A stretch of DNA of 37,614 bases from a virus: positions 1 to 37,614 of the IMG/VR virus record IMGVR_UViG_3300035190_000145; one strand, given 5' to 3'. The position numbers and the translations under genes were made by a program. Under the pieces are notes generated by a model. That model ran no database searches. It was not told where the DNA came from and saw only the letters and a program-made list of their open reading frames with translations. Numbering within the stretch: the stretch's first letter is position 1; each line of letters opens with the position of its first letter. Positions 15,001-36,893 of the stretch are shown piece after piece.

Positions 15001-18000
15001 GATCATCTCAGGATCTTTAGCAGCCTGGCCGGTGAGGGTCTTGTATGCGCGACGAGCAATCTGGAGTAGCTTCTGCCAGAACGTGCGTCCTTCCGGGGTG
15101 CGGTCGAGGATGGAGCGGAGGGCTTTGACCAGCCGCTCCTCTGCCTTGATGGAAGGGGATGCGTCAGAGTAGAGCCTCTCCACCGTGTCGTCGATCTTGG
15201 CGCGGGTGGTTTCATCGAGAGATCCGTATAGCTTGTAGAAGTTGGCGCGTTCTTTCTCGTCGCGGAACACGACGTGCCCCACCTCTTCATTGAGGGCGGA
15301 GCGCACACCTTCCGGTCCGAGCTTCGCGGCGTTCAGCTCGATCGTGTTGCCTTTGATCCTTGCTTCCCAGTTTGCCTTCGGCTCGTTCACCACCTTCACA
15401 TTATCGGGGCGCTTGCCACCGAAGAAATCATCAGCCGCTTTCTCCACGCCAACGGTATCAGCCGTGCGGGCGGGGGCGTCGGTCTTGGAAAATGGATTAT
15501 TGTCCATTGGATCGAAGTCATCGACTTCTGTATCGGAAGTCTCCTCAAAGAGCTTTCCTTGAGCTTTGTCCTGAGCTTTTGCAGCTTCCTCTTTGGCGTT
15601 GCGCTCTGCTACAATCTCAGCTCCGTCTTGCGTGTTCTCAGAGGCAAGAGCGAATCCGCCATCATCGTCAAACAACTGGCGCGAATCTTGGTTGCGTATA
15701 TCCATCTGCGACACCGGCCGATTCGGAGCGCTTTCTTTTGCAAGGGCTTCCTCTTTTGCAATCGCTTCGGCCTCTAGCTTCGCCATGTAGGCATCGTATT
15801 CGTCTTCGTAGGCGCGGCTCTTGCCTTGTGCGATGTCTTCAATCTCGCTCCTCAGCTCACTCCACAAAGTGCCAGCGTCCTTGTCTGGAGAAATCGTATC
15901 TGGTCCGCTTGCCGAGTAATCGTCGTGCTTGGCGTAGATCGAACGGAGAATATCCTTTGCCGCCTCGCGTCCCTCGGGGGTGCCGGGCATAGCATCGATG
16001 TCGGAGATCTTGATGAAGCCGTCGTATTCACCACCCTTTCTATTCTCTGCGAGGAAATTGATCTCTTTCGAGGAGAGCGTGATCTTCTTCCTCTGCTTGC
16101 CAAGGATCAATGCCAGCAGTGGAGGCGGGCTTTTGATCCTGTCATTTCCAATACTATTCAGCCCTGGGAAGTTCTCGATATTATCCCAGACCGCGCTGCG
16201 AATTTTCGATGCGGCTTTTGACAATCCCTTATACACGCGAGGGATTTCAAACTTGACGTCGGCTCGTTCCTGCTTCTTCTGAGATTGCGTGTCCTGCAAT
16301 TTCGCAAGCTGCTTCTCGGCCTTCGTGATCGTCTGCTTCGATGCACTATTCTTCTTCAGATCGGTGATCTTCTGGCGCTGAGCCATGATCTGATTGCCGA
16401 TGTCTTTGATCTCCACTGCAAGTTTTTTCGCACGAGTGGTAGCGGATAACTGGCGAGGAGCTGGTGCTTCGGGTGCAGCCGGTTGATTGGTCTCCGCGGC
16501 GATCTTCGTATTCAGGTCGCCCAGATACTTGTTCGGAGCAACGGCTTCGTATTTCTCGGTGTTGAGTTTCGGTGCCTGCTCTTTCGGGATCTCCGCCACG
16601 GCTTTGCCGGTGGTCTTGTCAACCACAATCACAGTGTTCTCGTTGCTGAAGAAGCTCTCAGGCTCTTCAGTCTTGGGAGGTAAAGTTCCCGCATTCTCCA
16701 GTGCGACCGGAGCGATGCCTGTTTCTTCAGGTCCGAGAGTGAGCTTGCGGCTAACTGGAGCGGCAGAGGCTTCGGCGGGTAAGGCGGGTTCGTTATTCAG
16801 TATTCTGCTGGCGGCGCGGGCGTTGGCGATGGCATCTGCGGCTGCGATGCTTGCGCGCTGCGACGGGACTTCTGGGCTGCCAACCGGAAGAGGAAGCCGT
16901 TGATATTTCCCAGCGTCCCTGGCTGCGGTGATGGCTGCAATGTTTTCGAGATCTCCTGAGAGCTTGTTGATAACGGCGGTTCTAGTTTCATCGGATAGGG
17001 ATGGGTTATTCTGGGCGCGGTCTATTGCCTGCTTGATCTGGTCTTCAGCAAGGAGGATTTGTTCATCGGTGATTGAGCGAAGCTGAGGAGCAAACTCCGG
17101 GGTGTCGTGCACCGGAATGCTTTTCTGCCCCTTCTGTTTCTTGAGTGAGACGCCAAGCTCGGCGATGTCAAGAAGATCATCGGTGTTATTGTCGATCGTG
17201 CTGAAGACTGACTGGAGGGATTCGTTCTCGGTTTCACCGAAGAAGCGGGTTGCCGTGGCGCGATCCTGCTGACGATCGAACGTCGGCTGCACACCGAGAT
17301 CCGCGAGGGAGCGATCGGTGCCATAGTTGAACGGAAGCTCGACAAGAGCGCCGTCAGGGCGAAGAAGGGCTGGGCGTCCTTCGTCATCGACGAGCTTGCC
17401 TGCCTGGCCTTCCCATTCGATGTCGCTGTCGATGAGGTCGGTGATGGTTGGATCTGGTTTTCGAGCCGGTGTGATGTCGATCGTTCCGCCCGAGTCCGAT
17501 GTGATCGCAGGGATGTTTGCTGCCGCGGCTCGCACGTCATTCGGCGTGACGGTGGCGCCTGCTCCCGATGGCACGAGAGCCATGGGATCAATGCCGAAAC
17601 GAGCCGCCATATCTCCTGCCAATCTGGTTCTTCCAGTGGCGACGGGAGGCGCGGTGGGTGCGGTTGGTGTAAGAGGTCCACGCTGTGGGATAGGAGATGG
17701 TGCTGCAACTGGCGCCGGAGCGGCTGCTTCGATCGGAGCTGGGATCATTGCTCCCTGCCCCAGGGCGCGACCGAGACGATTGGGATCACTGAAGAACGCA
17801 CCGGCTGCGGCGTTCAAGGCGATCTGGCGAGCGTCCATTGGCTGACCGCTTGCAAGAGCTTGTCCCACGTCCAACGCGCCACCGATGCCAACCTCAGATC
17901 CCACATTGATCCGGCTGTTGATGATCGCTGCACGCTCGACTGCATTGCTGGCACGACCAAGAGGGGTGAGCGCCGTGCGGATGTTTCCTGGGGAGAACTT

Positions 18001-18501
18001 GCCGGTGATGAGGGCTGGGGCGATCTGACCAGAAAAACTGGAAATTGGATTGACTTCCATGTCGCGAGCGATAGCTGCCTGCCGCTCCTCGGTGATGGGA
18101 TCGATCGCCTCTTGGATCTTCTGTCCACCAAAAGCACCGCCGATGCCGCCGATGATACTGCCGCCAATGGTCCCGATACCAACGGTAATCGGGTTGAGTC
18201 CCATTGCTCCAAGTCCTGCTCCTGTTGCAGCACCGCTGGCCGCACCAGCTAACGCGCCACCCACGCCGGCGCCGAGGTTTTCTCGTGCGCCACGGAGGAA
18301 TGATCCAGCCATGGAGGGATCGTTAGCCGCGGCCTCAAGCTCAGCTTTTTGTCTCGCCGCTCCCATGCCAAGAGGCGTGAGCGGTTGCTGCTCCTCAGCT
18401 CTGAGTTTCTTTATCTCAGTCGCAAAAACCTGAGCGTCTTCGGTGTTGCCTTGTGCGTCAGCGGCAAGGAATGCTTTCTCAAGTTCTTGAAGTGTTGGCA
18501 T
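12073..18501 (-). CDS. giant internal virion / ejection protein (T7 gp16-like, polyvalent)
   Basis: 2142-aa protein, the largest gene here. N-terminal helix (MPTLQELEKAFLAADAQGNT), then a glycine-zipper membrane-prone stretch (GAGVGGALAGAASGAATGAG, residues ~75-125). A long low-complexity Ala/Pro/Glu middle follows, then a zincin-like patch with LNEEVGHVVF (E1072, E1073, H1076), long helical coils, and a C-terminal domain (FHKTGAALNPTRG, AGLFYQLQSFLYDFHQKFTL) typical of podovirus large ejection proteins. It lies directly after the lysozyme-bearing protein, the position of T7 gp16. It probably lines the DNA channel through the cell envelope after ejection. Exact homology to gp16 is inferred from position and size, not shown. 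Confidence 0.75.
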   Translation of the reverse strand: MPTLQELEKAFLAADAQGNTEDAQVFATEIKKLRAEEQQPLTPLGMGAARQKAELEAAANDPSMAGSFLRGARENLGAGVGGALAGAASGAATGAGLGAMGLNPITVGIGTIGGSIIGGIGGAFGGQKIQEAIDPITEERQAAIARDMEVNPISSFSGQIAPALITGKFSPGNIRTALTPLGRASNAVERAAIINSRINVGSEVGIGGALDVGQALASGQPMDARQIALNAAAGAFFSDPNRLGRALGQGAMIPAPIEAAAPAPVAAPSPIPQRGPLTPTAPTAPPVATGRTRLAGDMAARFGIDPMALVPSGAGATVTPNDVRAAAANIPAITSDSGGTIDITPARKPDPTITDLIDSDIEWEGQAGKLVDDEGRPALLRPDGALVELPFNYGTDRSLADLGVQPTFDRQQDRATATRFFGETENESLQSVFSTIDNNTDDLLDIAELGVSLKKQKGQKSIPVHDTPEFAPQLRSITDEQILLAEDQIKQAIDRAQNNPSLSDETRTAVINKLSGDLENIAAITAARDAGKYQRLPLPVGSPEVPSQRASIAAADAIANARAASRILNNEPALPAEASAAPVSRKLTLGPEETGIAPVALENAGTLPPKTEEPESFFSNENTVIVVDKTTGKAVAEIPKEQAPKLNTEKYEAVAPNKYLGDLNTKIAAETNQPAAPEAPAPRQLSATTRAKKLAVEIKDIGNQIMAQRQKITDLKKNSASKQTITKAEKQLAKLQDTQSQKKQERADVKFEIPRVYKGLSKAASKIRSAVWDNIENFPGLNSIGNDRIKSPPPLLALILGKQRKKITLSSKEINFLAENRKGGEYDGFIKISDIDAMPGTPEGREAAKDILRSIYAKHDDYSASGPDTISPDKDAGTLWSELRSEIEDIAQGKSRAYEDEYDAYMAKLEAEAIAKEEALAKESAPNRPVSQMDIRNQDSRQLFDDDGGFALASENTQDGAEIVAERNAKEEAAKAQDKAQGKLFEETSDTEVDDFDPMDNNPFSKTDAPARTADTVGVEKAADDFFGGKRPDNVKVVNEPKANWEARIKGNTIELNAAKLGPEGVRSALNEEVGHVVFRDEKERANFYKLYGSLDETTRAKIDDTVERLYSDASPSIKAEERLVKALRSILDRTPEGRTFWQKLLQIARRAYKTLTGQAAKDPEMIAAAMLRRGIKNGKATGPDRMSATPPQSYRKALDAAKQEVADRADYKAQAKTVLAEIKKLPKAEQKPATVRMYAELDEARIIGKGKDRQFKVEMPKVVQELIAAGKPTSEADVINALTAKFPEQKNYLKKNFERLVTDMLFAEEVAMAGENTPWGNYVDSLKEHFTEISEGVKTGSTLRHIQRGLSLFRNTYFNGIGGKMQALADGKLTGKNSTAANKFFADIIGVRASQDGVNFEGVDGLSERDVRQMTNERIKFDTDLEAYFKKEGMGDAARAAWLERVSDHVVNPSRDAELAQEPKLKEAVDYFIKRRRERLAYLREAGVDVGDAGERSLSRSINTEKVLSNPKEFVEKAKRAYMRKWAREISDLREQQALKEAEGKNTASIKDKIRDLEKMDAQVAAEKYLYAITSDDTGISSDGNDITAAEGGGQPSFLKKREFGPEADELLGKFYHRNIAAMDTAEALATVRAATKARVLADKSYGNKIDPVGKWKKLRAELEAEGNQDMIPIAAQLVKDYLNLNGSNNDTVRKLVGHLHTYTQLAYLSHATVASLGEPAMIGARTGSIIDTGRAYAQIAKGIVRALRKAGPDEIRILNRELGLVADSFDGLMSSQALGDSFGGRGKGGGLVTNFHRLTGLSGWTNLTFDAATKIGKSFIASQVKLAKAGGSMSTLAKRELNELGMSTKDIDVVNDFITKLDKASDQNKLILGDEPGADLYRKALAMFHKTGAALNPTRGTRGQKANNPVAGLFYQLQSFLYDFHQKFTLRQARRLKDAYRGTVEIDGAIEKLSARERSQVAIDAAKAIAAIYGLQYGIQVLRETLFVDLERNKRDKEKTQGEINMARALGAASRTGILGPYDTLFNIISGARYQREPATVVLGPAVGGMSELFQSVVKLYGDRNSGNTNTTERKLVRTAYNTLATPAMNAVFAGMPAGPLSAGLVQAFRHPLTREAVVSGVAGPIQTKKKGPMKTTKYY

Positions 18502-25212: not shown

Positions 25213-25279
25213 ATTATTGATGTGATGTGAGAGGAAAGGGAAGGAGGGGATGGCCGAAACCACCCCCTCCAGTGAAGGC

Positions 25280-26344
25280 TTAGGCGATCGAGTAGACGCC
25301 GGAGCTGTTGAGACGTTTTGCGGTGAGACCACCGGTCCATGTCATCGAGCGGTAGAGGGCGTATTTGCTCTCTGGACGCGCTGGTGCGTGAACTTTGTTG
25401 TCTTCACCTTCCATGACGTAGCCGCAGACGGAATCCGTGTCGATCATGTAGCAGCGTTTCGAGTAATCGATAGCGTTGCCCATGATGCCTTGGAGGTCGT
25501 CGAGGGTTGGGTCATAGACGAATGTGCCGATACCAGTCACCGTCACGCTAGGCGAGGCGATGTTCTTGGAACCAGCGACACCGCTCTGCGAGTAAAGCGA
25601 CTTGGTTGCGACCTCTTTTTCGAGGGCATCAAGGAACTTGGAACCGCAAAGGATGAGGTTTGGCTTGCCACCGTAACGGGTGAGCTGACGGACTTCTTGG
25701 CGGAGAGTCTGGGTCAGGTTGTCCGAGCCGGCAGAGATACCGAGGTTGGCGCGGTTTCTCCACCAGGTGTTGGTAACACGGGACAGACCACCGAGCGTGC
25801 CGGTAGTAGGCGTGTCAACAACAAAGGCGAGGATACCTGGGCTTTGCTTGCCGGAGTCCTGAGCACCATCGCGCCAGAACATCTGGTTCATCTTGCGGCT
25901 CCAGCCTTCGCTCATCGAGCTGAGCTTGTGCTCAAGAAGGTTGGTCAGAGCGGTCTGCTCACGTCCAGATACCTTGGTGGTTTTCTCACCGAAGGCGCTG
26001 TCAGCGATGCTGATGCCGTCCTGTTTCAACTCAGTGAAGGTCACGCTGATACCAGCGTGGATTTCAAAGTAATCGTAAGCTGCGCGTTTGACGGCGTTCG
26101 GGTTCTGGAAGGTGACGGTATCGTCGAAGGAGAATCCTTTGAAGAAGTTCGCGTCGCTGTCCAGATAATCGCCGACCACTGGGATCGAGATTTTTCCTTT
26201 GCCACCGGGGAAACTCTTCTGTTTGCCACGGATGGCGGCGAGAAGAGGCTTGTCTTGAATGCTTTGATCGAAAGCGTCGCCCTTGATGTAATAATCCAGA
26301 GCGTAGCTTGCAACCGCATCCATCTGTGCTTGGGTAAGTGCCAT
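25280..26344 (-). CDS. major capsid protein
   Basis: 354-aa protein of the size and layout of podovirus coat proteins. The N-terminal arm (MALTQAQMDAVASYALDYYI) precedes a long-loop region (KQKSFPGGKGKISIPVVGDY) and a helix rich in charged residues (LTNLLEHKLSSMSEGWSRKM), then a core sheet with LGGLSRVTNTWWRNRANLGI and an A-domain-like C-terminus. It follows a scaffold gene by 21 nt and would assemble the icosahedral head with it. It is probably an HK97-fold protein; that fold is inferred, not seen directly. It is the second gene after a strong leaderless promoter. Confidence 0.85.
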   Translation of the reverse strand: MALTQAQMDAVASYALDYYIKGDAFDQSIQDKPLLAAIRGKQKSFPGGKGKISIPVVGDYLDSDANFFKGFSFDDTVTFQNPNAVKRAAYDYFEIHAGISVTFTELKQDGISIADSAFGEKTTKVSGREQTALTNLLEHKLSSMSEGWSRKMNQMFWRDGAQDSGKQSPGILAFVVDTPTTGTLGGLSRVTNTWWRNRANLGISAGSDNLTQTLRQEVRQLTRYGGKPNLILCGSKFLDALEKEVATKSLYSQSGVAGSKNIASPSVTVTGIGTFVYDPTLDDLQGIMGNAIDYSKRCYMIDTDSVCGYVMEGEDNKVHAPARPESKYALYRSMTWTGGLTAKRLNSSGVYSIA

Positions 26345-26365: not shown

Positions 26366-27412
26366 TTATGAGTTGAGAGCAAGGCTAACCGCATCGTTCA
26401 GGCTCTTAGGCTGAGGCTTTGCGTGACTTGCTGATTGCGTGGAAACAGGCTGCTTCATTGCCACCCGCTTTGGCATCACACTGGAAAGCAATTCAGTCGC
26501 TTCCTTCAAGGCTGCTTCGGCGATTGCCACGGCTTCCTGGGGAGTGCGAGCTGGACGCTCGATGTGTGCGAGTCGGATGTTTTTGAAGACAAGTGCCTTC
26601 TTAGCTTCGTAGTCGGGATCGCGTGCCGCGACCTGCTGTTCCCATGTTTCAACTGCATTAGTGATTTGCTGATGAACATTTCGCTCCGAGATCTGCTTCT
26701 GGTTTTCCAGTGCTTCTTTTTGCTGGTGTTCTTGCATAGCGAGACGAGCGCGGGCCACTGCCAATTCCTTGGCTGCGGTTTCGGTCATATCGCCCTCTTC
26801 AACCATCCGGCTCACATCCTCTGGCAGGGTTTCTCCTGCGAGTATGTTGAGCGGCTCAATGGTCTTGAGCAGCATTTCTCTCGCTCTCAACGGATCATTT
26901 TTCAATGCCGCCATTATCTCAAAGCCTTCATTGACTTCATCGGGGGTGAGACCGGTTTGAGCCATGTAGTCTGAGATAGCGCGGAACTGGGTAGCATCAG
27001 CTTTAAAGGCTTCTGCTTCGGCCTTGTAGGCGTTCTTTTCCCTGATTACCGCTTGAAAGCGTGGGTGCTTGTTGAATGGGAGCTTCTCGTCCTCTTCCGG
27101 CTTTACCTCGTCCTTGCTGTCAGTTTCGTCACTCGACGGCTGATCGGCTGGTTTCTTGGTATCACTGGATTCGGTAGAATCCGATTCTTCTGCCTCCGAG
27201 CTGGACGGTGCTTCGGCCTCGCTCTTCGCCACCACGTCTTTAACGAGGTCGAGAAGGGATGAGGGTTTTGCGTCCTCGTTGTTGACTGCGAGCGTTTCAG
27301 TCGTTTGCTCTGCGCTCTGTTCGATTACTGCGTCCGTCGATTGCTCGATGGTCGCACTGTCAAGGTTTGGTATTTGGTCGGAAGACGAATCCGACGCTTG
27401 GTTGATCGTCAT
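26366..27412 (-). CDS. scaffolding protein
   Basis: 348-aa, very acidic, helix-rich protein: a Glu/Asp/Ser-rich N-terminus (SSEAEESDSTESSDTKKPAD), a helical middle (LAVARARLAMQEHQQKEALE), and a basic C-terminus (MPKRVAMKQPVSTQSASHAK), typical of phage scaffolds that bind coat protein through a basic C-terminal helix. It lies directly upstream of the capsid gene. The ATG at 27412 starts exactly 7 nt after the -10 box of a strong promoter, so the transcript should start at or next to the ATG. Confidence 0.8.
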   Translation of the reverse strand: MTINQASDSSSDQIPNLDSATIEQSTDAVIEQSAEQTTETLAVNNEDAKPSSLLDLVKDVVAKSEAEAPSSSEAEESDSTESSDTKKPADQPSSDETDSKDEVKPEEDEKLPFNKHPRFQAVIREKNAYKAEAEAFKADATQFRAISDYMAQTGLTPDEVNEGFEIMAALKNDPLRAREMLLKTIEPLNILAGETLPEDVSRMVEEGDMTETAAKELAVARARLAMQEHQQKEALENQKQISERNVHQQITNAVETWEQQVAARDPDYEAKKALVFKNIRLAHIERPARTPQEAVAIAEAALKEATELLSSVMPKRVAMKQPVSTQSASHAKPQPKSLNDAVSLALNS

Positions 27413-27415
27413 GCT

Positions 27416-27448
27416 GGTCAGTGTAGGTTGATTACCCTACGCTGTCAA
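27416..27448 (-). promoter_or_regulatory. strong promoter giving a leaderless scaffold transcript
   Basis: On the minus strand, TTGACA (27448-27443), a 17-nt spacer and TACACT (27425-27420) give a near-consensus sigma70 promoter. Only 7 nt separate the -10 box from the ATG at 27412, so the start point falls at the A of ATG. The 17-bp block GGTCAGTGTAGGTTGAT (27416-27432, plus strand) is repeated exactly at 36645-36661. Confidence 0.75.
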
Positions 27449-27482
27449 CATATTCATCAGACAAAAATTCGTCCATGGATTA

Positions 27483-29639
27483 TTACTGCATTGGTATTCC
27501 GCCACCCATCTGAGGGAGGGATGATGGCGGGCCGCTCGGTGGCGGTCCCTGCGGAGGAGCTTTCTGATTATCCGATCCACCCTTGGATTCGATACCTTCC
27601 TGCGGTGGCCCACCCTGCGCTCCGCCCATCATCTTGCTCATCACGTTCTGAGCGATGATGGATGGGAGGCCGGAGGCGATGGCGTCGGTCGGGTCGATCC
27701 GATCGTCGAGGCGGGTAATAAGCTGCTTGACAAGCCAGTCAGGGCGCACGCCTGGGATCTGGAGGAGAAGCGGGGTAATGCGTTCGATATTAGCCACCTC
27801 GGCTGCTTTGTTGGGGCGACCGGAGGAACCGGCTTCGATCTCCAAGAGAAGCTCATCGGCGATCTCCTGATTGGAAAGGGATGGCCACACGGCGCCAGGT
27901 CCGACGATCTTCATCACCGTTTCGGCCGACATTTCAAGAAGATAGATCTGACCGGCTGCGCGGCTCAGTTCGATCATCATGTCGTCGAGATCATCGACGT
28001 TGGATGCGAGCGCCACGGTGCGGTTCTGCTCGGCGATCGAGTCACCGGTGGCAGTGACACCACTGGCAGCCGTGCCGATGCTGGAATCGGATTGTCCAAC
28101 AACCCGAAGGAGATCCTCAAAAAGTGCCGACGTATCGTAGAGAGCGGCGTCGATCGGCGCGTGCTGGATCGGCTGAAGGAGGTTGTTGACGTTGCCGTTG
28201 GGAGGAAGGGCGTTGAGCGTGATCACCGCGTTTGCCGGGCGGTTCTTGAGCTTCTCGATGTCTTCCTCGTCGAGCTGGCCGGCAGCCACGGCGGTGGCAG
28301 GACGGTTCGCCATGCGATGCTGGCGCAATCCCTCGCGCGAGCGGTTGTATTCCTTCTGGATCGGCTTGAGGAGATGCACGTCCGAGCGAGGGAAGATGCT
28401 GTTCTCGTTCTCGGCTTCGTTGAAGATGAGCGGGAAGATCGGCCAAAAGCGTTCAAGCTGGATGGCTGGCTGCTGAGGCTCGACGATGAAATCCTCATAG
28501 CCTTCCGCGATCACGCAGTATTGACCGGCGGGCTTGTCCCATACCACCCAAACCTTCACCCCATCGACCTTGCGCTCCTTGGAGTTTCCGCCGGTGGCAA
28601 CTGAGGCGAGCTTCTCCCTGAGTCCTGGGATGCCGTTCTTGGTGTTGGTATCGTAAGAGGTGGCAGATGAAGCGGTGGAAAGATCCACGCCGTAGATCTC
28701 CTTGATGTCATCCACGGTGAGCACGTATTCCTCGGCGATCCAGCGGGCGCCAATGAAGGTGCGGAGGTGCCGGCAGGCAGGATCGATGATGATCGAGGTG
28801 GACGATGGGAAGTCGAAGACCAGTCCCTCGCGCACGAGCTGTTGTTCGCGCTGCTGATAGTCCTGGAGCTGAAGGCGAAGCTGTTCCAGTTCTGGATTAC
28901 CCTCCTCCAGCTTGTCATCCACCTTGTCGGCGGTGAGGCGCTCGATGATGCTGATCTGCTCGGTGAGACCGTTGATGCGCTCCACGTCCTCGGGAGTGCG
29001 CTCCATGATGCGCTGGAAGCCGATCTTCACGTAACCCACGCCAGTTGTGCACACGCGGCGCACGAGGGCTTTCATCTGGGTCTTGAAGGGCGGAATCTGC
29101 TGGTTCAGGGTGTAATCGTAGAGAATGCCGAGTGTGTCGCTGACCTTCTGAAGCATCTGCTTCCGGCTCACGCCCTGGGACACGTCATCGATGAGAGAGA
29201 GAACTTGCGGAGGAAGTGGCATGCCGCTCTGCATGGATATTTCCATGGCCTGCTGGATGCCGGTGAGCTGATCCACCGTGCCGTCCCATACCTTGAACTC
29301 CATGGTCTTGCGGCGACGAACGATCACCTTCGGGTTCTTGGCGTAGAGCGCTGCCACGCGCTGATTGATGTGACGCTGGATGATGTTGGCGGTGTATTTG
29401 TCGTCATCCTCCTGGCCTTCCCACTGTGCGCCGGTGACGAAGCCTTGGTCTTCCTTCATGCGATCGAAGTCAGGCTTCCAATGAGCCTTCGCTTCTTGAA
29501 TTTTGCCTTGCCATTTCTTGACCAATGCCGAACGGCTTGGATCGATTTCTGGCTTCTCGCGCACCATGCCGCTCTTGACCGCCATTTCGGTGGTGCTCAT
29601 TTCGGTGGTGTCAGGTGTGGATGAAAATTCTTCGATCAT
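27483..29639 (-). CDS. portal protein, P22-like
   Basis: 718-aa protein close in length to P22 gp1 (725 aa). The N-terminal part has a wing-like region (YTANIIQRHINQRVAALYAK, NPKVIVRRR), a long helical stem region, a beta-rich crown and a Pro/Gly-rich C-terminus (GPPPSGPPSSLPQMGGGIPM). Twelve copies would form the DNA channel at one head vertex. ATG 29639 is used; an in-frame TTG at 29684 would overlap terminase. Gene order terL-portal-scaffold-capsid is standard for this group. Confidence 0.83.
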   Translation of the reverse strand: MIEEFSSTPDTTEMSTTEMAVKSGMVREKPEIDPSRSALVKKWQGKIQEAKAHWKPDFDRMKEDQGFVTGAQWEGQEDDDKYTANIIQRHINQRVAALYAKNPKVIVRRRKTMEFKVWDGTVDQLTGIQQAMEISMQSGMPLPPQVLSLIDDVSQGVSRKQMLQKVSDTLGILYDYTLNQQIPPFKTQMKALVRRVCTTGVGYVKIGFQRIMERTPEDVERINGLTEQISIIERLTADKVDDKLEEGNPELEQLRLQLQDYQQREQQLVREGLVFDFPSSTSIIIDPACRHLRTFIGARWIAEEYVLTVDDIKEIYGVDLSTASSATSYDTNTKNGIPGLREKLASVATGGNSKERKVDGVKVWVVWDKPAGQYCVIAEGYEDFIVEPQQPAIQLERFWPIFPLIFNEAENENSIFPRSDVHLLKPIQKEYNRSREGLRQHRMANRPATAVAAGQLDEEDIEKLKNRPANAVITLNALPPNGNVNNLLQPIQHAPIDAALYDTSALFEDLLRVVGQSDSSIGTAASGVTATGDSIAEQNRTVALASNVDDLDDMMIELSRAAGQIYLLEMSAETVMKIVGPGAVWPSLSNQEIADELLLEIEAGSSGRPNKAAEVANIERITPLLLQIPGVRPDWLVKQLITRLDDRIDPTDAIASGLPSIIAQNVMSKMMGGAQGGPPQEGIESKGGSDNQKAPPQGPPPSGPPSSLPQMGGGIPMQ

Positions 29640-29670
29640 GGCTTGTCTGGTGGTGATTGTATGTTGAATA

Positions 29671-31260
29671 TCAGAATCCAGCAACCGTTTTCGCTTGCGC
29701 TTTGTAGCGAGCTTCGATGTTGGAGCGGTGCTTAACCCACGCGAGGCTTCCCACGGTGGGTTCAGCCTTCTTGCGAACCGGGCTGGTGGCGGTGGTCATG
29801 CGACCGAGACCGAGGCCGATGTAGGCTAGGGTATCCACAAAGTCATCGTGCTTTCCTGATGGGAAAGTAAGCATCTGGTGGCGAGCGGCTTCCCACCACG
29901 GAGCGAATCCGGGGAAGCGAACCTTGCCCATGGCCAATCGACCACGGATCGCCTGCGCGCGGGTCTGCTTGTCCTTCACTGGAACCACCTCATCGATGGC
30001 GCAATAGACCTGTTCTTCCTGCATCCGCTTGCGAAGGAACGGGCCGATCGACTTGGAGATATGGCCGCGCTCCGCCCACCAGATCAGGGGCTTGTGGCGC
30101 GCCATCATTTCGAGCATGGCATCGACCACGTTGTCGGTTTCCTCCCTGCGCCACCACACATCCGGCAGAATCCAGATGTTGTCATCCTCGTCCACGCCGG
30201 CTGCCATGAGCACGGTGGGATCTCGATCCTGGGCGGTGGATACGGCGTGGTCGGAGGCGCAATAGATGCGGAGGTTGCGGGGTAGATCGCCGGGCTGGTA
30301 GGTGGCGAGCCACTCGCGCTTGAAGAAATCACCCTCCTCGGGAGCTGGGCGCCCTTGGTAGAGGGCTGCAAAGCCGCGAGGGTTCATCCTGCGCTGCGAT
30401 ACAAGAAACTCCTTGGTGACGCGCTCGCCCCAGAGCGGCTCATCCTTCTCCCTCCCCATGATGTCGCCTTCCTCGGCGAGGGCGGTGAAGTGGATGATCT
30501 TCCACTGCTTCGCCTCATCGGCGTTGTAGTATTGATTGTTAGGATCGGTCAGGCGACCGACAAGATCGTCCTCGTGCCAGCGGGTCATAATGATCACCAC
30601 TCGCCCCATGCCGCCCATGAGTCGGGTCATAGCCACGTCGGTGAACCATCCCCAGAGCTTGTTTCGCATGGTGGTGGAATCGGCGTCTTCACGGTCCTTC
30701 ACTGGATCGTCGATGAGGAGACAATCGGCCCCCCTACCCGTGAGGGCACCGCCGGCACCGACGAACACGCCGATACCACCCTGCTCCGTCTGGATACGAT
30801 CCGAGGATGCACCACCCTTGCGGAGCTGGCAGTTGGGAAAGATCTGCTGATAGGTGGGGCTCTGCATGTATTGTCTCACCTCGCGACCGAAATCCTCCGC
30901 CATGGTGGAGGAATAGGATGCCACGATCATCTGACGGTAGGGATCGCGTCCCATGAACCATGCTGGGAATGCCTTCGATGCGAGCTGTGATTTCCCGTGC
31001 CTCGGTGGCACCGTGATGATGAGGCGCGGGATCTCTCCACGCTCCACCGCTTCCAGTGCCGCAGCGAACACCTCGTGGTGTCTGGCGATGGCGTAGCGTG
31101 AGCGATCGGTGTTATCCGGATCTTCCGGATCAGGCATCATCATCCTCACGAAATCCAACAAGTTCTCCTGCGCCTTCCTCGCGGTCAGCAGCCGTTTCGC
31201 TGCCTTGAGCTGAAGCTCAGCTTCCTCAAGCGGCGTGAGTTCTTGTTTCTTGCGTGCCAT
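29671..31260 (-). CDS. terL: terminase large subunit
   Basis: 529-aa packaging motor. ATPase: Walker A VPPRHGKSQ (84-92), Walker B LLIDDP (181-186), and a following VVIIMTRWHEDD motif with the coupling segment. RNase H-like nuclease domain: D337 in CASDHA, an AERGH segment (E397) and HDDFVDT (471-477), the three acidic sites. It would cut concatemeric DNA and drive it into the head through the portal. ATG 31260; no Shine-Dalgarno is visible. It is separated from terS by several kilobases of fibre genes. Confidence 0.92.
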   Translation of the reverse strand: MARKKQELTPLEEAELQLKAAKRLLTARKAQENLLDFVRMMMPDPEDPDNTDRSRYAIARHHEVFAAALEAVERGEIPRLIITVPPRHGKSQLASKAFPAWFMGRDPYRQMIVASYSSTMAEDFGREVRQYMQSPTYQQIFPNCQLRKGGASSDRIQTEQGGIGVFVGAGGALTGRGADCLLIDDPVKDREDADSTTMRNKLWGWFTDVAMTRLMGGMGRVVIIMTRWHEDDLVGRLTDPNNQYYNADEAKQWKIIHFTALAEEGDIMGREKDEPLWGERVTKEFLVSQRRMNPRGFAALYQGRPAPEEGDFFKREWLATYQPGDLPRNLRIYCASDHAVSTAQDRDPTVLMAAGVDEDDNIWILPDVWWRREETDNVVDAMLEMMARHKPLIWWAERGHISKSIGPFLRKRMQEEQVYCAIDEVVPVKDKQTRAQAIRGRLAMGKVRFPGFAPWWEAARHQMLTFPSGKHDDFVDTLAYIGLGLGRMTTATSPVRKKAEPTVGSLAWVKHRSNIEARYKAQAKTVAGF

Positions 31261-31408
31261 TACAGGATTGTTGGCTAGGTTGCCTTGATGTCATCAATGT
31301 CATCAGGCAGCGGCGTGGCGGTCACGTCGCGGCCGTGGTGATTTGACCATCGTCGATGGCCCTGGTGGTGACTCGTTTAATGCTCATGGCTATTACTTGT
31401 GTGGCTTT
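31261..31408. other. intergenic stretch between fibre and large terminase
   Basis: 148 bp without a convincing gene. A 21-codon minus-strand frame (ATG 31387 to TGA 31322) is present but too short to support. In another frame, an open segment reading SHHQGHRRWSNHHGRDVT and continuing to an acidic end lacks any start codon, which may be the remnant of a lost small gene. Confidence 0.3.
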
Positions 31409-32989
31409 TTATTCGTATGATATATTGACTGATCCAGCGTCGAATGTGGGTGTTCCTAGAATTGTCGTGATGCGTAATTTATCAAGCTTATCAGAAAGAG
31501 TTTTTTGACCAGCCGATGATTCAACGTAATCAGTTATGATATTTCCAGATGAAACCCATGAATTGCCAGATACATTGCAAATGGTGATAATGCCTGACAT
31601 AAATTCGTCGTTTTGATTTATTCGGCAGATCACGAATCCCGCAACGGAATTTGTTGTTCCTCCGTAATCTCCGGCTCTTGAAAGATACCCAGTGGTTTCT
31701 ATTCCACCAGCATCTCCAATTTGAATGAGCAATGGACTGTTGGTATTAGTGCTGACTCCATTCAGGATTACAGTAATTCGTTTTACCCATGATGGAATGC
31801 CGGTGAAGTCAATCGACGTTCCACTTGTCGTGGCTTGTGCTGTGCCGAGCGTGAATGGCTGAGCCAGCTTGTCGGTGGTAATTGCTGCGGTGGCAATCTT
31901 TGATGAGGTGACTGCACTTGTTGCGAGTTTTGCTGAAGAAACCGCATTGTCGGCAATCTTGACCGTATCCACGGCTCCATCGGCGATCTTCGCTGCGGTT
32001 ATGGAGAGGTCGCTGATTTTTGCCGTGGTGATCGCGTTATCCTGGATCTTCGTAGTGGAAATCGTGTTGCTGGCAATCTTATCACCGATGACTGAAAGAG
32101 ATACTAGCTTTGAAGTGGAGATTGAATCGTCGGCAACCTTGTCGGATGTGACGGCATACTGAGCGAGCTTTGCGTTGGTGACAGATGCGTTGTTGATCTT
32201 TGCTGTGGATACTGCGCCATCGACAAGCTTTACAGAAGAAATTGACGCATCCGCAATCTTTGCTTCAGTCACAGCCAGAGCCGCGATCTTTATCGTGGTG
32301 ACAGCGTTGGTATCGAGCTTCGATGTGGAAATGGCTCCATCCGCCACTGTGACGATGTTGGTATTGGAAGGCACACCGATGCTGATCTCAATTACGGCAG
32401 CGTTGGCTGGGGCTGGCGTGATAATCAGGGTGGAGTTGTCGAGTGAGTAGGAGCTTTTTTGCTGATAGACACCGTCGATGTAAAGCTGCGTGTTATCCTT
32501 GGATGCCGGTATCTGCGTGAGAGTGAACGCCGTGGTGGCGCCGTTGCCGGTGAAGGTGTTGGTGTAGAGAACTCCAACCACCGGAGGGGCTGCAATGAGC
32601 GCCCAGTTGGCTAGGTCGTTAGCAAACACGCTCGATGACGTGTGGGCGATGATGCAGAGATAGGTGCCCTGTGTGCCGGGAGGATTGGATACGAAATCAC
32701 CCACTGCAATCGGAATGCCGATCGCCCATGTGATCGGGTTGGTGCCGCCCAAGGCAATAAGATCCACCACGTCAGCGGAAAGGGATTCAGTGCTCACCAC
32801 GCCGTTGCGGAGCTTGCCATCATCGCGTTGGACTTCAGACAACCGATCCTTGATCTGGTTGATGCTGTCGGAGGCACGGGCGAACTCGCCGTCAAGCTCG
32901 GAGCCTGGCAAGCCAGTGGAGCTGATCGGCTGCTGGGCCAACGTGGAGAATGATGTCTGTGGGGTAAATGCTGGAGGAACTGCGCTCAT
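31409..32989 (-). CDS. tail fibre protein with decapeptide repeats
   Basis: 526-aa fibre. The N-terminus (residues 1-80, SINQIKDRLSEVQRDDGKLR coiled coil) likely attaches to the tail; a beta domain follows with TNTFTGNGATTAFTLTQIP and YIDGVYQQKSSYSL, common in fibres. Then come 16 contiguous 10-residue repeats (about 216-375, consensus like ADxAVxTxKI). The C-terminus matches the widespread fibre module TSIDFTGIPSWVKRITVILN ... FDAGSVNISYE. The repeats would build a triple-stranded shaft and the end module contacts the receptor or caps the fibre. ATG 32989. Confidence 0.8.
   Translation of the reverse strand: MSAVPPAFTPQTSFSTLAQQPISSTGLPGSELDGEFARASDSINQIKDRLSEVQRDDGKLRNGVVSTESLSADVVDLIALGGTNPITWAIGIPIAVGDFVSNPPGTQGTYLCIIAHTSSSVFANDLANWALIAAPPVVGVLYTNTFTGNGATTAFTLTQIPASKDNTQLYIDGVYQQKSSYSLDNSTLIITPAPANAAVIEISIGVPSNTNIVTVADGAISTSKLDTNAVTTIKIAALAVTEAKIADASISSVKLVDGAVSTAKINNASVTNAKLAQYAVTSDKVADDSISTSKLVSLSVIGDKIASNTISTTKIQDNAITTAKISDLSITAAKIADGAVDTVKIADNAVSSAKLATSAVTSSKIATAAITTDKLAQPFTLGTAQATTSGTSIDFTGIPSWVKRITVILNGVSTNTNSPLLIQIGDAGGIETTGYLSRAGDYGGTTNSVAGFVICRINQNDEFMSGIITICNVSGNSWVSSGNIITDYVESSAGQKTLSDKLDKLRITTILGTPTFDAGSVNISYE
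31865..32344 (-). repeat. sixteen 30-bp coding repeats in the fibre shaft
   Basis: Each unit encodes ten residues with hydrophobic/small residues at fixed positions and a Lys-Ile/Leu/Val at the end (for example ADGAVDTVKI, ADNAVSSAKL). Diversity at the DNA level means it is an old repeat, not a fresh expansion. Confidence 0.75.
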
Positions 32990-33011
32990 TTATCTGCTTG
33001 GTTATTGATGG

Positions 33012-33494
33012 TTAAAGGATGACGGAATGCTCGCCGCGCTCCGGATAGTCGCTGAAGAAATACTGGCCGAGATCCTTCACGGCGCCGTGATACATGCCTG
33101 CGAAGCGGAAGCCTGCGGTCAGCATGATGTCGTGGAAGATCTCGTTGGCTTCGTCGTAGCCGAGTGGATAGTCAGCCACCCGGAGGAACTGGAAGGCGGT
33201 GTCATGGAAGCAAGATGCTAGGCGCGTGGCGACTGGATCTGGCGTGCCCACCCAGCCGATCAATGGCACCCACCACTTGGGTGAGCTTCCGTTCCAGCGG
33301 TAGCCGGCGCTGATCGTGTAGCGGTTGCCGATGATCCTCACCCATTCCTTGCGCTCGCAGTCACGCAGCGACAACCGCTTCGTGTTGGTCATGTAGGGAA
33401 GCGAGAGCGTGATGTTCTTGATCAACTCAAAGCGATAATTGCCGCCCTTGAGCTGGCGGTAATGGATGCCTTCGGTGAAGTCAGGGAGAGTCAT
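33012..33494 (-). CDS. DUF1353 phage protein, 160 aa
   Basis: The family signature is clear: a beta N-terminal part, YRWNGSSPKWWVPLIGWV, then ATRLASCFHDTAFQ and GYDEANEIFHDIM, with the conserved HD pair and DE..D. The start ATG at 33494 (MTLPDFTEGIHYRQLK) is chosen because the longer frame to 33620 lies inside the upstream gene; it begins 7 nt after that gene's stop. These proteins occur in phage tail/fibre regions; the HD residues hint at metal binding, but a biochemical function has not been assigned to my knowledge. Confidence 0.75.
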   Translation of the reverse strand: MTLPDFTEGIHYRQLKGGNYRFELIKNITLSLPYMTNTKRLSLRDCERKEWVRIIGNRYTISAGYRWNGSSPKWWVPLIGWVGTPDPVATRLASCFHDTAFQFLRVADYPLGYDEANEIFHDIMLTAGFRFAGMYHGAVKDLGQYFFSDYPERGEHSVIL

Positions 33495-33501
33495 GGATAG
33501 A

Positions 33502-33822
33502 TTAGGACCAGAATACACTTGGAACATCGGGGTTAAATTCGGGATGAGGGAAAAAGATTTCATCACCAGCATCGTCGATGATGGTTTGGTTTGATGCCCA
33601 GTAGATGAACGGGTCAGCACTGGGAGGAACGGGGATGCCTACAAGGTCGCGGAAGAGAAACCAGTAGTCCTTGCCGTTATGCTCCCCGATTTCGTGCAGG
33701 GCGTATTCGTGGGATGCAAAGGTTGTCTGTATAACGCCATCGACTTCTGTGGTAAATCCATGAGCAACGCCGAATTGTTCAGCGATTGCTTTGGATGGGA
33801 ATTTTAGTAGGTAGTCGATCAT
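33502..33822 (-). CDS. hypothetical protein, 106 aa
   Basis: It begins MIDYLLKFPSKAIAEQFGVA and contains HEYALHEIGEHNGKDYWFLF; mixed alpha/beta and acidic toward the end. The ATG overlaps the fibre gene's TGA (ATGA), so it is translationally coupled to the fibre. Similar-sized proteins next to tail fibres can be fibre chaperones or immunoglobulin-like attachments, but no family was recognised here. Confidence 0.6.
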   Translation of the reverse strand: MIDYLLKFPSKAIAEQFGVAHGFTTEVDGVIQTTFASHEYALHEIGEHNGKDYWFLFRDLVGIPVPPSADPFIYWASNQTIIDDAGDEIFFPHPEFNPDVPSVFWS

Positions 33823-35639
33823 ACTGTGAGTGCTTGAAGTTTTGCGTTGGATAGACGTTTCTTGAATACTTTAATTTGTGAGTATGTTCCGCTAGTTGTA
33901 TTGTTGTTCCAAGATCTACCAATTTTAAAAATAGTTGCCGTCGGCATCGTCCCGCTAGTGTCTTCAGTCCCAAGTGAGCCATTAGCCGCAACTTGAAACG
34001 AGCTAGCTTTCATTGCCGCTGCCAGCTTGTTGTTTTGATTCAGCGTTATACTTTTACCTACCGACGCCTGAGTGCCCGCCCCATCAATCACATAGCAAGT
34101 TGCAGAATTGGGCGAAGGAAATCCTGCGAGTGCAGATTGTTCCGCTGTTTCATTATCAAAACTTAGATAAGAGCCAAAGTTAGCATGGCTCATACCTGAG
34201 GCTTCTGCGAACAAAGTGTGTTCAGATTCGTTGTAAACCAATGTAAAGTCACTACCAGTAATCGAGCAAACATCCGCACTGCGAACTACGGACGCTGAGG
34301 TGGTCGGGATGTAGGAGGTGGGGAAGGAGCCTGCTTCTAGCTGTGCGCCCCATGCCCAGAAGGAATCCACGGAGTTACCAACGTAGGTTCTTGATGTGCC
34401 TGAGACGGGTGAGAATCTGAGTGTCGTGTTTGATGTAGCACCTGCTGTTCCCGTGACAATACAGCGATACCATCCGTTTCCGACTTGCTGAATCGAAGCT
34501 GTGCCGAAAGCACTGGCAACAACCGAACCCGCACCAGTTAAATCAAACATTGCATCAACTGGGAGTGTCACGGGATTCCCCGCCCATATACTAACTCTGG
34601 TTACTTGATTGGGCTTGAAATAACAACTCACCGTGTAAGTAGTGCCACTTGTTACGTTCCCCGTAGCAGGTAAGGCTTGAGCAACCTGATAGGTCGTTGT
34701 CGTTGCTCCAACTGTTAAGAGATCAGCGTCAGTCGCTCCTGATGGTGATGCTGTGTTATTTGCGGTTACGGTTAGGTTTCTTAATTGGTTCCATTCAGAA
34801 GCACCAAAATCATCACTTCGGATTGTCAAATTCGTCCTCGCCTCCTCGATCAGCAATCCCTTGCAAGCGAGCGTGACGGGATCGTGGTCGAAGCGGGCGT
34901 TGTAGACCGCTGCGGTGGTGGTGGGGATGTAGGCGCGGGCGAATTCGTGACGTTCTTTTTGAACGCCACCAATTAGAATACCCTTTGTTATATCACCGGT
35001 GTAGATCGTATCACCAACTAAGGAACTCGAATTTATTTGGATTGCCGCGTTAGAAGTACCCAATGATGTAAATGGAGGTGTTGAAATTCTCCACCATCCA
35101 GAACCTAAATTAACAGCCGTCCATCCAGTATTGTTCGTGAATGTTCCCGCACTAAGATTGAATGTATTGCTTGGATGTCCTGAAGCTCCATTGATAAATA
35201 CAAAATCTCTTCCAGCTCCTTTTAGAATATATGAGCAAACTGTTAAACCATCATTAGATGCTCCGCTTGTAAATACTCGGTGAAGACCTGTTGCTGCGGT
35301 TTCAGCTAAGAACACAGGTGATGCAATAACTGTATCTCCAGTAACCCTAGATAAAGTGACGTTAGTTGGAGCGTTGGTTAATAGTTCTGATGGAAAGAAC
35401 AGGTTCTCACGGGCATACTTAATCTGCCCCAAGTTATTAACGAACGTAGCACCACTTGCCCGTGTGAACGTAGGGGTAGGTCCTTTGCGAGCCGTGAGGG
35501 ACTTGTCGGTGGCGAACTGGAGGTTGAGGGAGAGGCGGTCCGTGCTCGGTAGTCCTACTCCGGAGCTGCCCGCACCAACGCGACCAACGCCTGCGAACTC
35601 CACGCCTTTGATGTCATCGGATTTTGATTTGGATGCCAT
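33819..35639 (-). CDS. tail or head fibre with carbohydrate-binding-like modules
   Basis: 606-aa receptor-binding candidate. The N-terminus (GVEFAGVGRVGAGSSGVGLP, RLSLNLQFATDKSLTARKG) resembles the anchor of phage head-spike/fibre proteins. Two successive lectin-like beta modules each have a GWWR/GWYR strand (NLGSGWWRIST; QQVGNGWYRCIVTG) and a FARAYIPTTT / FPTSYIPTTS end, repeated with changes, then a concanavalin-like C-terminus (ATIFKIGRSWNNNTTSGTY). DNA between about 34980 and 35400 is visibly more AT-rich, suggesting imported receptor-binding segments. ATG 35639 lies 6 nt after the preceding stop. Confidence 0.78.
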   Translation of the reverse strand: MASKSKSDDIKGVEFAGVGRVGAGSSGVGLPSTDRLSLNLQFATDKSLTARKGPTPTFTRASGATFVNNLGQIKYARENLFFPSELLTNAPTNVTLSRVTGDTVIASPVFLAETAATGLHRVFTSGASNDGLTVCSYILKGAGRDFVFINGASGHPSNTFNLSAGTFTNNTGWTAVNLGSGWWRISTPPFTSLGTSNAAIQINSSSLVGDTIYTGDITKGILIGGVQKERHEFARAYIPTTTAAVYNARFDHDPVTLACKGLLIEEARTNLTIRSDDFGASEWNQLRNLTVTANNTASPSGATDADLLTVGATTTTYQVAQALPATGNVTSGTTYTVSCYFKPNQVTRVSIWAGNPVTLPVDAMFDLTGAGSVVASAFGTASIQQVGNGWYRCIVTGTAGATSNTTLRFSPVSGTSRTYVGNSVDSFWAWGAQLEAGSFPTSYIPTTSASVVRSADVCSITGSDFTLVYNESEHTLFAEASGMSHANFGSYLSFDNETAEQSALAGFPSPNSATCYVIDGAGTQASVGKSITLNQNNKLAAAMKASSFQVAANGSLGTEDTSGTMPTATIFKIGRSWNNNTTSGTYSQIKVFKKRLSNAKLQALTV

Positions 35640-35645
35640 GCAGGA

Positions 35646-36641
35646 TTAGCGGCGTTGGATGGAGAGTCGAATGTTCGGGGTGGTTGCCACACCGGCGGTG
35701 GTGTTGGCTGAGGAAGCCGCTGCCGTGATGCCAGGGCTTGGAGTGCCGTTGGCGAGTGCCACGTTCAGGGTGGTATCGTTGGCGAGGAAGGGAGCGCGCT
35801 TGGTGAGAGTGATCGTGGCGCCAGTGCCACCCACTGCGTAGAGAGGGGAGACGCGGTGAGAGTTGTTGAGCGCGTTGCGGATCTTCTCAGCCCACACGTT
35901 CAATGTGTCGCCGGTTCCCACTGCCACGTTGAGCGTCATGGGAGATGAGGCGATGAGTGCCGAGGTGACAGTCACGTCGATCACACCAGAGGTGACGATC
36001 GTGCCGGCATCGTTGCCGCCTGCCAGGACTGCGATCTTCTGAGCGTAGGCTCCGACCGTTTCAACTGCCCATCCGTTTCCGGCTGCACCGGCTGCCGAGG
36101 CAGTGATCGTAACCACCGGTCCAGAGGATGATTCAGTGAGGCCCGTGACGGTGAGTGCCGCGATGGCCGCTGCCACCAACGTAGGCGTGGTGAGCGTGTC
36201 GATCGAGATCTGGTTGGCTCCAGCCACACCCGCCACAAACGTAAAGGTGGTGCGAACATTGGCTGGCGATGTGAAGAAGATCGTATCGCCTGCGACCGGC
36301 AATCCAAACACCGTGAGGGTGGTGGATGCTGCGGTGGCTGCTGGGCCTGCACAAGTGATTGTCTCGACTTGGGCGGTGCCTGCGGCTACCGTTGCTCCCG
36401 ACATGTTGGCTCTCAGCTTGCACGATCCAATCGAGAAGCTGAATGCGCCATCGGCTGCAACTGTTAGGTTTGCACCATCGCCATCCTTCGCGTCGAAGAA
36501 GGTCGTGCCTCCATCAACTGATGCCTGAAGTTTGACGGTGCCGCTGCTGAAAGTTCCAGTGGAGGCAAGGGTGCCATCACCGCCGTGCCAGTCGATCACG
36601 GTGCTGTTGGCGTTGGATGAAATGGTTTCGTTAAGGTTCAC
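35646..36641 (-). CDS. beta-rich structural protein, first gene of a strong promoter
   Basis: 331 aa from a GTG at 36641. Content is Ala/Thr/Val/Gly-rich beta sandwich modules (TLTVFGLPVAGDTIFFTSPA; AAAIAALTVTGLTESSSGPV; GAAGNGWAVETVGAY), a pattern seen in phage decoration and tail proteins. It has almost no Lys/Trp and looks like an outer, stable virion component. The in-frame TTG at 36677 lies within the -35 box, so GTG 36641, 7 nt past the -10 box, must be the start. High expression and position next to fibres suggest a capsid or tail surface protein. Confidence 0.65.
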   Translation of the reverse strand: MNLNETISSNANSTVIDWHGGDGTLASTGTFSSGTVKLQASVDGGTTFFDAKDGDGANLTVAADGAFSFSIGSCKLRANMSGATVAAGTAQVETITCAGPAATAASTTLTVFGLPVAGDTIFFTSPANVRTTFTFVAGVAGANQISIDTLTTPTLVAAAIAALTVTGLTESSSGPVVTITASAAGAAGNGWAVETVGAYAQKIAVLAGGNDAGTIVTSGVIDVTVTSALIASSPMTLNVAVGTGDTLNVWAEKIRNALNNSHRVSPLYAVGGTGATITLTKRAPFLANDTTLNVALANGTPSPGITAAASSANTTAGVATTPNIRLSIQRR

Positions 36642-36644
36642 GGC

Positions 36645-36677
36645 GGTCAGTGTAGGTTGATGAGTGTTGGGTGGCAA
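36645..36677 (-). promoter_or_regulatory. strong promoter giving a leaderless transcript
   Basis: On the minus strand, TTGCCA (36677-36672), a 17-nt spacer and TACACT (36654-36649) precede the GTG at 36641 by 7 nt. The 17-bp block GGTCAGTGTAGGTTGAT (36645-36661) is identical to the one before the scaffold gene, with the same 3-nt distance to the start codon. Confidence 0.75.
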
Positions 36678-36893
36678 GCGAAAATTTTGCAGGGGAAAGT
36701 TTTGAAAAAATAGAAAATTAGTGGAGGGGGGCAGTAAGGAGCGGAGCCGGCGCGAGCGGGGGCGGGCCGGGGGGGGTCGCCGGTGGTGCCTGGCCGGTGG
36801 TCGGTGGTCGATCGATGGCGCCGATCATGCGTCGATCATGCGTCGATAAGGCGTCCTAGCATCCACAATGCCATATCCCGCACGCCCTAACCC
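36678..36893. other. GC-rich non-coding region between terS and the first structural gene
   Basis: 216 bp with no gene. The left part is A-rich (TTTTGAAAAAATAGAAAATTA at about 36700-36720 region); then a run of G/C including eight consecutive G and repeated GGTGGTC; then tandem 11-bp repeats. Located just behind terS, it may hold the packaging initiation (pac/cos) site or the terS terminator. Confidence 0.4.
36822..36854. repeat. three tandem 11-bp repeats
   Basis: CGATCATGCGT (36822-36832), an exact second copy (36833-36843) and a diverged third copy CGATAAGGCGT (36844-36854). Tandem short repeats beside terS are a common form of terminase small-subunit binding site. Confidence 0.6.

Follow-up and report, generated by a model that had tools for sequence, protein, structure and literature searches.

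Sigma-70-type promoters conserved at the start codons of two phage genes predict leaderless mRNAs in a clade without Shine-Dalgarno signals

Two host-type sigma-70 promoters, P1 and P2, whose -10 boxes end 7 nt from a start codon, probably give rise to leaderless mRNAs in a phage clade that lacks Shine-Dalgarno (SD) signals, P1 serving the scaffold-capsid unit and P2 the genes past the small terminase. The DNA analysed here (the window) is an IMG/VR virus record of 37,614 bases that encodes a tyrosine integrase. Its minus-strand block holds, in this order, the small terminase, the gene starting at 36641, tail proteins, the tail fibre, the large terminase (TerL), the portal, the gene starting at 27412 and the major capsid protein. 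The 27412 gene (26366-27412, 348 aa, N-terminus MTINQASDSSSD, predicted leaderless ATG) has no family match and is named scaffold because it lies ahead of the major capsid gene (25280-26344; phrog_9953, E 3.9e-42), which is the second gene of the P1 unit. The gene after the small terminase (35646-36641, predicted leaderless GTG) matches just one PHROG, which has no assigned function, and no Pfam family. Of the downstream products named in the first-pass annotation, the scaffold/capsid pair stands, whereas the product of the 36641 gene is only putatively a surface-type protein, and the late timing of both promoters is likewise presumed. Elsewhere in the window, a 2142-aa virion-type protein (12073-18501) has essentially no PHROG counterpart (best match E 0.005), and directly past the small terminase gene CGATCATGCGTCGAT occurs twice (36822 and 36833, within 36822-36847), a pair that is possibly a packaging or replication site.

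P1 (27420-27448; minus strand, as are the two genes, the other promoters and the flanking elements given below) consists of a -35 box TTGACA (27448-27443), a 17-nt spacer and a -10 box TACACT (27425-27420), followed by 7 nt and ATG 27412. P2 (36649-36677) has the same layout, i.e. TTGCCA (36677-36672), 17 nt, TACACT (36654-36649), 7 nt and GTG 36641, and both are exactly as first described. With spacers inside the usual 16-18 nt they match the sigma-70 consensus (TTGACA/TATAAT) at 10 and 9 of 12 positions, respectively, this consensus being an assumption for the hosts of the contigs. TACACT is a middling -10 box. RNA polymerase with sigma-70 commonly initiates 7-8 nt past the -10 box, preferably at a purine. 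At both sites position 7 is a C and the first base of the start codon, A or G, occupies position 8, so that leaderless mRNAs, or mRNAs with 1-3 nt before the start, are expected, with predicted 5' ends at A27412 and G36641. The earlier expectation that transcription begins at the start codon is thus borne out as far as placement goes: conserved sigma-70-type promoters are positioned for a start at this codon or no more than about 2 nt away. Neither start is preceded by an SD sequence (GACCAGC-ATG and GACCGCC-GTG).

Both promoters are kept in relatives. A related capsid is encoded in 48 viral loci. In relatives at the 94-96% level that have the region, TTGACA-17-TACACT (or TACATT)-7-ATG at the P1 site is retained with an altered spacer, and P1 is kept with spacer changes in L004, L005, L006, L007, L010 and L053. 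In the 73-76% relatives the sequence at the site differs and the geometry recurs, as TTGACA-16-TACTCT-6-ATG in L014 (TACTCT-6-ATG also in L012) and as TTGACG-17-GACATT-7-ATG in L016, L017 and L046; GACATT and GATGAT, found in the sister clade, are weak -10 boxes. P2 reads TTGCAA/TTGCCA-17-TACACT/TACAGT-7-GTG in L056 and L057, and its equivalents lie 6 nt (G004) or 8 nt (G006) from an ATG, with a similar site in G008. At both sites, the hexamers and a distance of 6-8 nt to the start are retained and the remainder diverges. Alignments of the scaffold proteins begin at residue 1 (MTINQASDSSSD, MTDTYESDSSSD, MTPPTASDSSSD) and homologues of the 36641 gene begin at, or at most two residues from, the matching position, and this N-terminal homology shows that the start codons at both sites are correct. 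The sequence comparison supports P1 and P2 as conserved promoters and favours the leaderless reading. One of the contigs compared, that of L014 (G004, 81,028 bases), appears to hold two different phages and is possibly a chimera: it is related to the window up to about 37 kb, carries a second, mostly minus-strand gene set at about 44-64 kb, and has a stretch near 38.7-40.2 kb that is found again near 74.2-75.8 kb.

Right after the capsid gene lies a strong, terminator-like hairpin (25243-25270; 12 pairs, weak T tail); nearly all relatives examined have one in this position, with a stem of different sequence. Owing to this conserved hairpin, scaffold and capsid look like a transcription unit of their own. 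The neighbouring portal gene has a candidate promoter, P3 (29656-29684; TTGCTG-17-TACAAT), with a leader of about 9 nt before ATG 29639. It is weaker than P1 and P2; its -10 box reads TACACT in relatives, and the conservation of its -35 box is not independent as this overlaps the end of terL. An alternative portal start, TTG 29684, was rejected because in relatives it is not in the portal reading frame. In one relative an insertion of about 0.5 kb (L004:456-1011) separates the portal-promoter leader from the portal gene, so that the -10 box and leader now front a new ATG.

The absence of SD sequences extends to the whole genome. In the window, L014, L016, L017 and L046 there is no clear SD excess (0-0.18 of genes vs 0.02-0.16 in shuffled sequences), G is depleted before starts, and an A is found at -3 in 52% (window) and 62% (G004) of starts. 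By comparison, the clade with about 48% capsid identity (L018-L045) is rich in SD signals (0.47-0.69 of genes vs 0.21-0.36 shuffled). In these counts the first ATG of each open reading frame was taken as the start, which blurs weak signals, and the standard anti-SD was assumed. Where the window has P1, this clade has a scaffold promoter of the type TTGAAA-17-TAGAAT, and the leader that comes after it includes an SD sequence of the AAAGGAC type. In this sample, leaderless geometry thus coincides with genome-wide SD absence; the correlation covers few independent lineages. We tentatively suggest that the promoter of the capsid unit switched between a leadered form with an SD sequence and a leaderless form within one phage family, as SD signals were lost or gained across the genome; the mode of initiation would then be a host-adaptation trait that shows in where one conserved promoter sits, and a recognition element particular to each lineage may have co-evolved at the late promoters. 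In some members of this marine clade the scaffold promoter overlaps an inverted repeat around the conserved TTGTTGAAAnnTnCGA, e.g. CCCTGTTTGT...ACAAACAGGG in L021 (z -5.4), and among the loci searched L022, L030, L033 and L045 have a second TTGTTGAAAnnTACGA-like copy of the clade's motif elsewhere, without a -10 box.

We propose that P1 would transcribe a short scaffold-capsid unit ended by the hairpin terminator, that P2 would transcribe the genes after the small terminase, and that ribosomes would recognise the 5'-terminal start codon, the SD-free genes of the clade corresponding to a host that presumably initiates translation without SD. Upstream promoters could also transcribe the genes of P1 and P2 with long leaders. 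Leaderless initiation is weak in E. coli, and capsid genes have to be expressed at a very high level; placing the scaffold-capsid unit behind a leaderless promoter would imply that the host's ribosomes handle such mRNAs well. A leaderless GTG works poorly in E. coli (less than 10% of the ATG activity), a point against the leaderless reading at 36641, and well in mycobacteria (PMC4633059). The absence of SD signals may itself be a clue to the host, with Bacteroidota, some Verrucomicrobia and Prochlorococcus among the SD-scarce groups (PMC10783764). Capsid alignment against 84,980 species gave only distant relatives (an alphaproteobacterial MAG, and planctomycete and other MAGs), and a search of 294 planctomycete and 190 alphaproteobacterial genomes settled no host. 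As the sister clade expresses the same unit from a promoter with leader and SD sequence, the two clades offer a natural paired comparison for how phage translation signals adapt to hosts.

It is possible, if rather less likely, that P1 and P2 are real promoters at which a phage or host factor reads a lineage-specific sequence, CAAC[CA]-TACACT-nACC here and CAGACAG in the sister clade, for coordinated late activation. Within a genome the P1 and P2 spacers share words of 7-10 nt that differ by lineage: ATCAACC in the window (shuffle p 0.003), TACAGACAG in G004 and CAGACAGACA in G006/G008, there also at P3. Words common to the window and G004/G006/G008 are only 3-4 nt long, the promoters of these sister lineages having CAGACAG as their different, common spacer word. 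Moreover, both promoters are preceded by conserved blocks, at P1 ACGAATTTTTGTCTGATGAATATG (27449-27472), conserved in relatives, and at P2 the A+T-rich, 42-nt CTAATTTTCTATTTTTTCAAAACTTTCCCCTGCAAAATTTTC (36680-36721), nearly unchanged in L056 and L057 with traces in G004, which is possibly an UP element or activator site. Against such a factor, the P1 and P3 spacers share nothing in the closest, L053-type relatives, ATCAACC occurs nine times on that strand of the window, and CAGACAG is about fivefold over-represented throughout the sister genomes, coding regions included. No sigma factor or late activator was found among the early window proteins scanned with Pfam and PHROGs, and no RNA polymerase was recognised among the window proteins scanned. 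A lineage-specific recognition element is therefore possible. The CAGACAG excess in G004, G006 and G008 (L071-L078) affects both strands (e.g. 21+23 copies in 37 kb vs 4.2 per strand expected) and is not seen in the window; the word may be Chi-like, serve in uptake or be typical of the host. An imperfect palindrome GTAGG...CCTAC over the spacer and -10 box of P1 (27423-27440; z -2.4, and -4.3 in L004-type relatives) was dropped as part of a mechanism, being modest and having no counterpart at P2.

The two promoters drew attention through an identical 17-mer, ATCAACCTACACTGACC on the minus strand (GGTCAGTGTAGGTTGAT at the same coordinates), present in exactly two copies (27416-27432 and 36645-36661), each 3 nt before ATG 27412 or GTG 36641, just as originally noted. 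No further copy exists in the window even when 3 mismatches are allowed (0.08 matches expected from shuffles), and it is the longest exact direct repeat there, which would suit a promoter cassette recently copied by duplication or gene conversion, an explanation that we regard as improbable. The flanks of the two copies in the window are unrelated, which gives no sign of a recent segmental duplication, and the two -35 hexamers are not the same. Each site has its own older, diverged promoter in relatives, and a common functional core accounts for part of the identity. Some exact 17-mer repeat also arises in about 8% of Markov-model trials with the composition of the window, i.e. the repeat taken alone is only mildly unusual and its placement is the striking part. 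Close relatives retain little of it beyond TACACT and a loose nACC discriminator, the scaffold site reading ACCACCATACACTGACC or ATCAGCCTACATTAACC there and the 36641 site AAAGACCTACACTCACC or AAAACCATACAGTCCCC, so that the identical 17-mer is not a conserved element. Its extended identity had been taken as a hint at phage-specific recognition or recent duplication, which finds no support here; absence of the repeats from close relatives had been named as evidence against the whole proposal, and this absence applies to the 17-mer and not to the promoters.

That P1 and P2 are chance look-alikes, their genes being expressed by readthrough from upstream promoters, is most improbable: consensus matches alone are weak evidence, a generic scan of the region finding 10 promoter-like sites vs 9.9 in shuffles, but the hexamers are conserved while the spacers diverge, equivalent geometry occurs in several lineages, and matches of at least 9/12 with a -10 box that precedes the start by 5-8 nt are found at 3 of the 27 listed gene-start positions (a few of which are not true starts) as compared to a mean of 0.059 and a maximum of 2 in 3000 model trials. 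The third of these matches, at TerL (31260), was dropped as a leaderless candidate and is by contrast a likely product of chance, as it is not conserved in relatives.

Conserved promoters for leaderless transcripts thus remain the preferred reading, and such transcripts have precedents in the open-licence papers covered. In the Thermus phage phiYS40 most middle and late mRNAs are made without a leader (PMC3594737), and according to a remark in one phage paper, leaderless transcripts are frequent in phages (PMC5312081). The window resembles phiYS40 in the predicted leaderless mRNAs of putative late genes; phiYS40 has experimental backing and a link to changes in IF2/IF3, whereas the window, from an unrelated phage, offers promoter geometry, with a conserved leaderless layout only at P1 and P2 among its gene starts and about 9 nt of leader at P3. 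Among named phages, Microcystis phage Mae-Yong1326-1 and Rhizobium phage RHph_N65 are nearest (capsid identity 41% and 34%, TerL identity 51% and 49%, respectively). Mae-Yong1326-1 shares the order TerL-portal-scaffold-capsid but its scaffold-position gene is preceded by an SD-like GAGGAA. Flavobacterium resembles the window in lacking SD signals and in the enrichment of A at -3 (PMC6847099), and differs in that its mRNAs are mostly leadered. In mycobacteria, translation requires no more than an mRNA that begins with ATG or GTG (PMC4633059), which matches the ATG and GTG pair of the window, albeit in different organisms. Finally, a TANNNT box about 10-12 nt before a start without SD is a published sign of leaderless (TA-led) bacterial genes (PMC3160421); the first T of TACACT lies 13 nt upstream of the start at P1 and P2 and 12-14 nt in relatives. 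What sets the window apart from TA-led genes is that the arrangement occurs on structural genes of a phage, that the -35 box is complete and that a sister clade is leadered at the same gene. Taken together, P1 and P2 are a well-supported variant of the known leaderless class, to which they contribute the comparison across clades.
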